DNA of 60,693 bases from Planctomycetota bacterium (GTDB lineage: Bacteria > Planctomycetota > Planctomycetia > Pirellulales > Pirellulaceae): the NCBI GenBank assembly GCA_027619595.1, contig JAQCHP010000001.1:1-60693 (forward strand), in the 5' to 3' direction. Under the pieces are notes generated by a model that saw nothing but the letters and a program-made list of their open reading frames with translations, was not told the DNA's origin and made no database searches. Every line of letters begins with the position of its first letter. The first letter of the stretch is position 1. Made by a program: the position numbers and the translations under genes. Shown in pieces: positions 14,860-18,329 of this stretch.

Positions 14860-16875
14860 ATGAATCACAAGCTGGGGAACGGCGTGGGTCTCGAACGGGC
14901 CAACGTCGAGTTATTGGGATTCCCTGCTGGCAGGGAATTCAGTACAAACGCCCCGCGTCCTTATAGGTGGTTTGCCACCCAACTACAACCAATCCTTGCA
15001 TTGGCCCGGATGGATCTCGAAACACACATTACGCTCTATCGATATATGCTCACGGCGCGTCAAATTGACCTGGCGGAGGAGCGTCTGTGTCGGCGTGGGC
15101 TAGCGTTCTTTCACCTTTCTGGAGCGGGACATGAAGCTGTGGTGGGTCTGGCCCCGCACCTCAAGCCATCGGACTGGCTGCATAGTCACTATCGATCTCG
15201 TTCGCTGTTGCTAGCTAAGGGGATTCGCCCCCAGAGTTTCTTCGACAACCTTCTGGGCAAAAACGCATCGAATGCCCAGGGCCGACGCATGGGCGCGTTC
15301 TTTAGTGATCCCCAGCGGAACGTGCTCAGCATGACGACGCTCGTGGGCAACAACGCATTACAGAGTGTGGGGGTCGCGTCCGCAGTCCGCAGTCGACCGG
15401 GACAGCCAATCGTTGTGTGCGGGTTGGGGGATGGCACGACCCAGCAAGGAGAATTTCTGGAAGCCTGTGGGGAAGCCTCACGGCGCAAAGTGCCGGTATT
15501 GTTCCTGGTAGAGGACAACGGTTTTGCCATTTCGACTCGTACGCATGGGAACACGTTTTACGCCAATACATTGACTGATGGTCACTTTTACGGAATTCCT
15601 CTACAAGTGGCCGACGGTACTTGCGTCGAAACAGTTCACGATGTTTTGGGCGGTGTTGTAGCGAGAATGCGGAGTGACCGCTGTCCGGCAGTCGTAGTCC
15701 TGCAACTCGAACGACTATGTAATCACTCGAACGCAGATGACCAGCAGGTGTATCGTGCTGCCGGTGAGCTCGCGGAGATTTCCTCGCTTCGGGACCCGAT
15801 ACGAAGGGCTGAGCAAAAACTGTTGTCCCTTGGAATAAGCGAGTCGCAGTTACGCGCGTGGCGAGACGAGGTTGCAGCGGAAATAGCCGTGGCCGAAGGT
15901 TTGTCGCTTCAGGGTAAGGAACCAGAACCTGTCTTGGATGCAGTGTGTTCACTACCGGTTGCACTGACACACCCGGCGCGAGAATTTCGAGGTAATGGAA
16001 CACGCGATGTTGTGATGCGAGATGCCATACGTGACGTTCTGATGCATCACTTGCGTGTGAATCCTCGCGTTAGTCTGTTGGGGCAGGACATCGAAGATCC
16101 GAAAGGGGATGTTTTTGGTGTAACGCGTGGGCTCAGTACCGAATTCCCTGACCGAGTCACCAACGCTGCGTTGTCGGAATCGACGATTCTTGGGGTATCG
16201 ATTGGGCGTGCCTTGGCCGGTGAACGTCCTGTTGCGATGATTCAATTTGCCGATTTTTTACCGCTTGCGTTCAATCAAATCGCGTCGGAAATGGCTACTA
16301 TGTACTGGCGTACGGGTGGTGGCTGGCACTCGCCAGTGATCGTCCTGGCGGCCTGCGGTGGTTATCGACCAGGGTTAGGACCATTCCATGCACAATCGGG
16401 TGAAGGTTACTTTGTTCACACGCCGGGGTTGGACGTGTTTATGCCGTCTCATGCGACCGATGCGGCAGGAATGCTAAACGCTGCTTTCGCGTCAGGTCGT
16501 CCGACACTTTTCTTGTACCCCAAGGCCATCCTGAACAATTCGCAACTCAGTACCAGTCGTGATGTGTCCAAACAATTTGTGCCGATTGGCACCGCGCGAT
16601 GTATTCGCGCAGGGCGTGACCTGACACTTGTCGGGTGGGGCAACACGGTTTCTCTTTGCAATTTAGTCTCCCAAGCCTTGGAACAGGCGGGTGTCGAAGC
16701 GGAGGTATTGGATCTGCGCTCACTAGCCCCGTGGGACCAACGCAGTGTATTGGCTTCGGCAGAAAAAACGGCGCGCTTGATCGTCGTGCACGAGGACAAT
16801 CACTCGTGTGGCGTCGGTTCCGAGATTTTGGCCACGGTTGCCGAGCACGCCAAAGTACCTGTCGCAATCGTGTGA
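14860..16875 (+). CDS. 2-oxoacid (branched-chain type) dehydrogenase E1, alpha and beta fused; first part of a broken E1-lipoyl-KAS III frame
   Basis: The 671 residues fuse an E1-alpha domain (about 55-330; thiamine-diphosphate motif from GLGDGTTQQGEF near 190 to the Asn of VEDNGFAIST) to an E1-beta domain (about 380-671; GQDIEDPKGDVFG, then FADFLPLAFNQIASEM, and a transketolase C-terminal segment from about 570). E1 decarboxylates a 2-oxo acid and acylates a lipoyl group. The frame stops at TGA 16873-16875, inside the conserved E1-beta C-terminus. The missing end (VTRSDTHVPCHFGNQMDVLP) follows at once in the next frame, so one base appears lost near 16869. ATG 15010 is an alternative start that removes 50 poorly conserved residues; neither start has a good ribosome-binding site. 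Confidence 0.85.
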   Translation: MNHKLGNGVGLERANVELLGFPAGREFSTNAPRPYRWFATQLQPILALARMDLETHITLYRYMLTARQIDLAEERLCRRGLAFFHLSGAGHEAVVGLAPHLKPSDWLHSHYRSRSLLLAKGIRPQSFFDNLLGKNASNAQGRRMGAFFSDPQRNVLSMTTLVGNNALQSVGVASAVRSRPGQPIVVCGLGDGTTQQGEFLEACGEASRRKVPVLFLVEDNGFAISTRTHGNTFYANTLTDGHFYGIPLQVADGTCVETVHDVLGGVVARMRSDRCPAVVVLQLERLCNHSNADDQQVYRAAGELAEISSLRDPIRRAEQKLLSLGISESQLRAWRDEVAAEIAVAEGLSLQGKEPEPVLDAVCSLPVALTHPAREFRGNGTRDVVMRDAIRDVLMHHLRVNPRVSLLGQDIEDPKGDVFGVTRGLSTEFPDRVTNAALSESTILGVSIGRALAGERPVAMIQFADFLPLAFNQIASEMATMYWRTGGGWHSPVIVLAACGGYRPGLGPFHAQSGEGYFVHTPGLDVFMPSHATDAAGMLNAAFASGRPTLFLYPKAILNNSQLSTSRDVSKQFVPIGTARCIRAGRDLTLVGWGNTVSLCNLVSQALEQAGVEAEVLDLRSLAPWDQRSVLASAEKTARLIVVHEDNHSCGVGSEILATVAEHAKVPVAIV

Positions 16876-18329
16876 CGCGATCTGATACTCACGTGCCGTG
16901 CCATTTTGGTAACCAAATGGATGTCTTGCCGTCCTTTTCTCAGATTTTATCGGTTGCTGCCGATATGTTGGACTTGGATCTGACGTGGGAAGAAGCTGCC
17001 CACGACGCAACGAATATGGCAACCATTCGCGCCATCGGTTCGAGTCCGTCGGATGAGTCGGTCGTGGTTGTCGAGTTATTGGTTGCGGCCGGAGAAACGA
17101 TCCACGAGGGGCAAGCCGTTGCCTCCGTGGAAGCGACGAAATCAGTGTTTGATCTCACGTCCTCGATCTCAGGCGAAGTATCAGAGATTTTGGCCGTGCC
17201 CGGGCAGACATTGCGAGTTGGTGAGCCCTTGATGCGGGTTCACGTCGACTCAACTGTGACGGCCAATACGGCCGTTTGCAGTTCTCTTCCACTCGACCCG
17301 GGACGTCCCCACTTTAAGCGTCGCGCTTCGTCGGAACGAATTCGATTGCCACGACGCGATCAACATTCACGGCGCTATTCGGTTGGATTCTCGTCCATTG
17401 CGACGGTCGAGGGGAGCCGGATCGTGACCAACGACGAATTCGTCCTTCCTCGCGGCGAGTTTGTCGCCGAGGATATCGTACGACGTACGGGCATTGAGCA
17501 ACGACGATGGGTTGGGCATAACGAGGACGCTGTTTCAATGGCGGCTCAGGCTTCTCGGCAGGTGTTAGAAAAAGAGCGACTCATTCTGGAAGATATTGAC
17601 TTACTAATCTGCAGTACCACAAGTCCATCATCGGTTACTCCGTCTACGGCGTGCCGGGTCTTGAACGCCCTCACTCAGTCCCGGGGCGAAATCATGCTGC
17701 AAGCGTACGATATCAATGCGGCGTGCTCGGGTTACTTATATGCACTCCAGGCGGGATACGATTATCTACAGAGTCGTCCCCAGGGCCGAGTTTTAGTGGT
17801 AACTACGGAAGTCCTGTCACCGTTACTGAACCGCGACGATTTCGACACAGCAATACTGTTTGGGGATGCTGCGTCCGCAACCGTATTGTACGGTGAGGCT
17901 TGGATGGACAAATCGTTGGCCGAAATCTATCGTCCCGACCTTTCTGCCAAGGGAGATAAGGGGGACGTCTTGTCGGTCCCTTTCTTGCGTGATGGCTTCA
18001 TTCAGATGCAAGGACGTCGCGTCTTTCACGAAGCAGTTCGCACGATGATAACGAGCTTGACGCGTGTTTGTGATCTGCAGCAGATCTCGATTGATAAGCT
18101 AGATCTGATTGTCCCCCATCAGGCCAATCAGCGAATCCTGGATGCGATTCAAAGTCGCGTTCAGGCGCGAGTCTGCAGCAACATTCGGCAGTACGGCAAC
18201 ACTTCGTCGTCCAGTATCCCCTTGTGTTTAGCGGAAGTTATTCCCACAGCGTCTTCTGGCAGTTTGCTAGGTCTGTGCGCGTTTGGTGGTGGCTTTACAT
18301 TTGGCGCTGGCATCTTGCAGATGAACTAG
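16872..18329 (+). CDS. E1-beta C-terminal end, lipoyl domain and KAS III (beta-ketoacyl-ACP synthase III) in one polypeptide
   Basis: From GTG 16872 (GTGA overlap with the upstream TGA; ATG 16917 is the next start) this frame completes E1-beta. It continues with a biotinyl/lipoyl domain (about 50-130) whose lipoylation Lys is codon 17139-17141 in VEATKSV. A full KAS III follows (about 175-485): Cys 17724-17726 in NAACSGYL, His 18117-18119 in VPHQAN and Asn 18198-18200 in GNTSSS, the complete C-H-N triad. No E2 acyltransferase core (HxxxD) is present. KAS III normally condenses acyl-CoA with malonyl-ACP. Here the lipoyl arm could deliver the acyl group directly; that is inference. Read with one base restored, the whole protein would be about 1156 residues. 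Confidence 0.8.
   Translation: MTRSDTHVPCHFGNQMDVLPSFSQILSVAADMLDLDLTWEEAAHDATNMATIRAIGSSPSDESVVVVELLVAAGETIHEGQAVASVEATKSVFDLTSSISGEVSEILAVPGQTLRVGEPLMRVHVDSTVTANTAVCSSLPLDPGRPHFKRRASSERIRLPRRDQHSRRYSVGFSSIATVEGSRIVTNDEFVLPRGEFVAEDIVRRTGIEQRRWVGHNEDAVSMAAQASRQVLEKERLILEDIDLLICSTTSPSSVTPSTACRVLNALTQSRGEIMLQAYDINAACSGYLYALQAGYDYLQSRPQGRVLVVTTEVLSPLLNRDDFDTAILFGDAASATVLYGEAWMDKSLAEIYRPDLSAKGDKGDVLSVPFLRDGFIQMQGRRVFHEAVRTMITSLTRVCDLQQISIDKLDLIVPHQANQRILDAIQSRVQARVCSNIRQYGNTSSSSIPLCLAEVIPTASSGSLLGLCAFGGGFTFGAGILQMN

Follow-up and report, generated by a model that had tools for sequence, protein, structure and literature searches.

The pyruvate dehydrogenase and branched-chain 2-oxo acid dehydrogenase complexes join an E1 component with thiamine pyrophosphate (TPP) residues to a lipoyl domain, an E2 acyltransferase core and a subunit-binding domain, whereas the β-ketoacyl-acyl carrier protein (ACP) synthase III (KAS III) FabH is a separate enzyme with a Cys-His-Asn triad and a presumed ACP-docking Arg. 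Judged by published descriptions only, the nearest precedent for a link between these chemistries is Photorhabdus BkdABC, a three-gene system of iso-fatty acid and photopyrone precursor supply; these report that it is needed for iso-fatty acids, forms a 5-methyl-3-oxohexanoyl thioester and includes an acyl-carrier domain within BkdB (PMC4578411, PMC4901931, PMC8248439). Such a product would fit a decarboxylation followed by one malonyl condensation. Here, a 60,693-nucleotide stretch of Planctomycetota bacterium DNA (the window; contig JAQCHP010000001.1 of assembly GCA_027619595.1) contains a locus encoding E1-alpha, E1-beta, lipoyl-type and KAS III domains in that order, and 18 of its relatives carry all four as one polypeptide. 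An earlier note on this locus had pointed to branched-chain dehydrogenase parts tied to a KAS III in Photorhabdus stilbene synthesis, and the parallel is pertinent (PMC4578411, PMC4901931).

Comparison with these systems shows what is distinctive about the fusion. It shares the E1 with its TPP residues and the lipoyl domain with the dehydrogenase complexes, but lacks an E2 core and a subunit-binding domain in the 43 members scanned; it shares fold, triad and presumed docking Arg with FabH, but its KAS III sits behind E1 and lipoyl domains and is without Trp32. Unlike BkdABC as described, it is a single polypeptide in which no carrier domain was found. Two Streptomyces plasmid clusters (L171:7929-18178 and L172:7878-17878) are similar in that an E1-alpha/beta gene adjoins a synthase that has a lipoyl domain at its start and a ketosynthase further on. 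In L171, the only one of the two scanned with Pfam, the synthase continues through 2-oxoacid_dh and a phosphopantetheine carrier (PP-binding) to a modular ketosynthase, suggesting that these clusters load a 2-oxo acid onto an assembly line. The fusion has neither an identifiable E2 core nor a carrier, and its ketosynthase is of type III. No published description of an E1–lipoyl–KAS III fusion was found among the open-licence papers listed, and PMC10237450 has no bearing on it.

The fusion is real although the window copy is broken, since 18 relatives and 80 named loci share the same domain order. Among 60 genomes including the window's own, 18 of 59 relatives match the downstream half inside an open frame of 1111–1218 residues, and all 18 have a single open reading frame (ORF) of 1105–1207 residues aligning to both window halves. 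A scan of genome contigs confirmed 570 loci, of which the best 80 were named; at least 12 of these are identical in sequence to relatives. The fusion occupies one uninterrupted frame in 78 of the 80; L087 and L089 are truncated where their contigs end. Cultured carriers include Devosia insulae (L112) and Pontiellaceae B12227 (L132). A tree of 78 rows spans nine labelled phyla, comprising Planctomycetota (32), Kiritimatiellota (12), Spirochaetota (12), Verrucomicrobiota (9), Pseudomonadota (6), Lentisphaerota (2) and three single-row groups, with two rows unassigned, although the records are mostly metagenome bins and some taxon labels may be wrong. The distribution is patchy: four of 392 genomes in an even phylum sample, the window's own included, carry the fusion (E ≤ 1e-90), as do three of 274 genomes in the class of L110, with its own included (E ≤ 1e-45). 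The three lipoyl-spanning matches in that class lie in frames of 1152, 1121 and 886 residues, the shortest of which reaches the end of its contig. Unlinked lipoyl–KAS homologues were found neither among the matches listed in the 60 genomes, nor in the phylum sample (four matches, own included), nor in the class of L110, at the same thresholds. The gene belongs to a conserved family, patchy in its distribution, of proteins of ~1,100 residues.

Domain content and catalytic residues are strongly conserved. Six Pfam models match the window above cut-off: the upstream ORF has E1_dh, Transket_pyr and Transketolase_C, while Biotin_lipoyl, ACP_syn_III and ACP_syn_III_C lie in the downstream ORF. Each of the 43 scanned members contains all six, and the order is the same in relatives; a domain and architecture survey of this kind had been proposed in the earlier note. 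That note had also stated that the protein lacks both an E2 core and an E3; Pfam matched no E2-core or E3 model in the window protein, and the E2 core (PF00198, 2-oxoacid_dh) and subunit-binding domain are found in none of the 43 members (E ≤ 0.001). NCBIfam models named for E2 match the window protein over its lipoyl part only, an HxxxDG-like string occurs in one of 88 distinct fusions, and PP-binding is not among the matches of the window protein or the 43 members. Residue counts derive from 98 fusions (18 relatives, 80 named loci; 88 distinct) and from 98 KAS III rows (18 relatives, 79 named loci and the window, with L087 excluded at its contig end; 86 distinct), while alignment A2 covers 43 of the 80 loci and leaves out L097, whose match range crossed a stop. 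The lipoyl Lys is kept in 88/88 distinct fusions, preceded by Thr, Asp or Ser in 81 and followed by Ala or Ser in 87, and PF00364 is present in all 43 scanned. The E1-alpha His and the E1-beta Glu and His are likewise invariant (88/88), and the TPP motif GDG (n = 87) retains both Gly residues and the later Asn throughout, with Asp in 83 and Glu in four. All 87 fusion rows with a letter at the relevant positions have the KAS III Cys, His and Asn and the equivalent of Arg249, which we take to be the ACP-docking residue; Asn247 and Arg249 are kept in 86/86 of the KAS III set. In the window, the lipoyl Lys is encoded where the earlier note had placed it and the triad codons are present (Table 1); its KAS III scores 258.8 bits against PRK09352 (cut-off 249) and 226.6 bits against TIGR00747, under the cut-off of 292.1.

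Structure prediction, which the earlier note had also proposed, agrees with these assignments. An AlphaFold2 model of relative L056, built from a 43-row alignment, has a mean predicted local distance difference test (pLDDT) score of 88.0 and a predicted template modelling (pTM) score of 0.75, with a low-confidence linker at residues 775–786. In VIA-align comparisons, which bear on the KAS III and E1-beta parts and barely on the E1-alpha and lipoyl parts, residues 790–1110 superimpose on FabH (Z 41.1, 306 aligned, 1.9 Å) and residues 331–660 on a branched-chain E1-beta (Z 40.2, 322 aligned, 1.8 Å).

Taken as a family, these proteins are somewhat more probably than otherwise self-contained chain initiators that convert a 2-oxo acid, most likely a branched one, and malonyl-ACP into 3-ketoacyl-ACP while sparing coenzyme A (CoA). 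Judging by the E1 residues, E1-alpha/beta would decarboxylate the 2-oxo acid, for example 2-oxoisovalerate, with TPP; as the invariant Lys suggests, E1 would then reductively acylate the lipoyl group on its own polypeptide. No E2 core being present, the acyl group would pass from the lipoyl arm directly to the KAS III Cys, and the triad and putative docking Arg predict that KAS III condenses it with malonyl-ACP. The resulting branched 3-ketoacyl-ACP would prime synthesis of fatty acids or related lipids, and a lipoamide dehydrogenase encoded elsewhere would re-oxidize the lipoyl group. It is plausible, the residues being suggestive rather than decisive, that the lipoyl-to-Cys hand-over proceeds without CoA. 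Two features of the family weigh against this scheme. The 15–17 residues between the last conserved Trp of E1-beta and the lipoyl domain are short for a swinging arm (61–91 residues separate the lipoyl domain from the KAS III core), and no neighbour set common across lineages was found when neighbours were compared, mostly with one another.

Table 1. Features of the window locus, in window positions.
Feature	Position	Strand	Remarks
E1-alpha + E1-beta ORF	15010..16872	+	Open from ATG 14860; TGA 16873-16875 precedes E1-beta end
E1-alpha domain PF00676	15040..15894	+	TPP motif GDG...N, branched-chain-type GRRM segment, HSNADD...YR loop
E1-beta Transket_pyr PF02779	16009..16533	+	Pfam
E1-beta Transketolase_C PF02780, shortened by frame break	16588..16854	+	Pfam
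Frame break	16864..16875	+	Net -4 nt vs relatives; TGA 16873-16875 overlaps GTG 16872-16874
Downstream half, other frame: E1-beta tail, lipoyl domain, linker, KAS III	16872..18329	+	Alignment to relatives
Lipoyl-type domain PF00364	17058..17237	+	EATKS motif, conserved Lys 17139-17141
KAS III domain	17388..18326	+	Cys 17724-17726, His 18117-18119, Asn 18198-18200
Asp at FabH Trp32 place, window KAS III	17472-17474	+	Alignment

The window copy itself departs from its relatives. The earlier note had described complete E1, lipoyl and KAS III domains in one continuous coding stretch; the domains are all there, but the continuity is not, because the E1 frame stops at a TGA inside Transketolase_C of E1-beta and the remainder lies in another frame. 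The two ORFs overlap, at 14860-16875 (671 residues) and 16635-18329, and the last ~40 residues of E1-beta (VTRSDTHVPCHFGNQ...), the lipoyl domain and KAS III belong to the second. In a gap-free alignment of the 18 relatives, two residues separate the places of window VPVA and R[VI][TA]R, whereas only two bases separate them in the window, which is thus four bases short overall. The alignments with relatives start at window residues 39–57 (residue 51 in 8/18), which makes ATG 15010 a more probable start codon than ATG 14860.

The break is either a genuine mutation or an assembly error, known from one draft assembly of 281 contigs, and the window locus is probably a pseudogene or sequencing artefact within a family that functions elsewhere, a reading that does not conflict with the one proposed for the family. 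Neither the 18 relatives nor the 80 named loci are broken at this site. Two features speak against that reading: apart from the break, the first half stays open for 2,013 bases and the second for 1,455, both of them alignable with relatives, and the GTG overlapping the TGA makes re-initiation conceivable. That the window copy may be dead counts against the initiator scheme. A programmed frameshift as a conserved device was rejected, as relatives have no shift at that place; inspection by eye saw no slippery heptamer there.

Next in standing is an unlikely, CoA-dependent alternative: E1 would load the lipoyl group, a separate E2 would form acyl-CoA, and the tethered KAS III would act like FabH, the fusion providing proximity only. 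Two E2 cores are encoded in the window genome, one on C179 with an E3 and a 905-residue homodimer-type E1 (labelled by eye) and the other on C255, and the KAS III part keeps the FabH fold. Against this, both cores lie on contigs other than that of the fusion (C74), and the family has no identifiable subunit-binding domain. No E3 is among the family matches of the fusion protein either, the one found adjoining an E2 on another contig; LipA is present in the genome.

The CoA site of KAS III also bears on this alternative. In FabH, Trp32 and Arg151 sandwich the CoA adenine, and Thr28 makes a further contact with it (PMC4606726). Trp32 is lost in all 86 distinct fusions including the window, where its place is taken by Asp (65), Ala (13), Glu (3), Gly (2), Gln, Ser or Lys (one each), whereas it is kept in 29/29 controls, each the best-matching separate KAS III of one relative (all 18 carriers and 11 of 41 non-carriers). 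This control set leaves out the window-genome proteins L154 and L156, which are not FabH-like and have no Trp32; with them the count is 29/31. The KAS III residues suggest that something other than CoA donates the acyl group and that malonyl-ACP serves as extender.

Several observations temper this interpretation. First, a CoA clamp may have been re-built in the fusions, as a Trp occurs four residues upstream of the Trp32 place in 31/86 (where Thr28 of FabH touches the adenine) and at the place of FabH Ile44 in 79/86; Arg36 is also kept in 75/86. Second, the Trp32 change is a character of one clade and not 86 independent events. Third, the two non-fused KAS III of the window genome (on C272 and C6, sharing 30% and 25% identity with E. 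coli FabH) also lack Trp32, and thus its loss alone is no marker of a lipoyl donor. Arg151 was dropped as a second CoA marker, being variable among the controls.

Apart from the fusion, these two are the only ACP_syn_III matches in the window genome, and the assembly (96.4% complete) yielded no FabH resembling the one in the 18 fusion-bearing relatives; such a gene may be missing from the assembly or may have been lost. A separate KAS III is kept in 18/18 fusion-bearing relatives and in 8/8 genomes that contain named loci, the genome of L086 being counted in both groups. Thus, the fusion would seem to be an additional initiator, and the idea that it replaces FabH was rejected.

The E1 is, with moderate confidence, of branched-chain type, as judged by sequence comparison. 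Its best solved E1-alpha matches are the branched-chain enzymes of Thermus (117 bits) and human (92 bits), which have in common a GR[QR]M segment; GR[QRK]M is present in 81 of 88 distinct fusions, and of the seven without it, L089 is truncated ahead of the segment. The other E1-alpha/beta of the window genome (C132) instead has GRGGSMH there, and its beta part passes the cut-off of a pyruvate dehydrogenase model. The segment and the best solved matches therefore favor branched-chain 2-oxo acids without proving them, so that the branched acyl substrate suggested by the earlier note is upheld in moderate form. Three results pull the other way. Human pyruvate E1-alpha scores only slightly lower, at 86 bits, and E1-beta structures of the pyruvate and branched-chain types are level on the L056 model (Z 39.8 vs 40.2); the best NCBIfam E1 models for the window are pyruvate dehydrogenases by name, though far under cut-off (169 vs 411 bits); and no fatty-acid or branched-lipid phenotype of carriers was found in the open-licence literature. 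That the E1 uses pyruvate or another non-branched 2-oxo acid to make ordinary acetoacetyl-ACP or a special lipid primer, and not branched fatty acids, is nevertheless improbable, given the segment, the solved E1-alpha matches and the separate KAS III that carriers also have.

Operon context was rejected as a clue to function, as neighbors differ between lineages. The window copy has BatD-like and VWA genes upstream and TruA and ABC ATPase genes downstream. In L041 and L037, the loci whose neighbors were read individually, a FabF/ACP/CrtI/FabZ/FabI set adjoins the fusion (L041) or has its FabI end ~7 kb from it (L037). The L041 set (L041:3976-12223) and one on C6 of the window genome (L159:7877-15967) comprise FabF-like, ACP, two CrtI-like, FabZ, FabI-like and OleD-like genes; an OleA-like gene (labelled by eye) stands beside the C6 cluster. 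Such clusters are, we presume, reminiscent of ladderane or hydrocarbon gene sets. The CrtI gene occurs in 53/60 genomes including the window's own, in 17/18 carriers and 35/41 non-carriers, and thus the set does not track the fusion. Elsewhere, a gene for a BMC-domain protein begins 7–22 positions past the fusion in six loci (L059, L068, L069, L075, L076 and L078); the one scanned, L059:11331-11957, has two PF00936 stretches. In seven spirochaete loci a short-chain dehydrogenase gene (scanned example, L130:11531-12409) is either the next gene downstream of the fusion or no more than two genes away, and it could encode a ketoacyl reductase.

Whether this widespread family uses acyl-lipoyl as a direct ketosynthase donor, making branched 3-ketoacyl-ACP with neither E2 nor CoA, is in our judgment evenly balanced. 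If it does, the family would represent a CoA-free entry into fatty-acid synthesis, and the lipoyl swinging arm would be able to feed a carbon–carbon bond-forming enzyme directly. Planctomycetes, spirochaetes, Kiritimatiellota and others would then have a way to make branched fatty-acid primers with a single gene.

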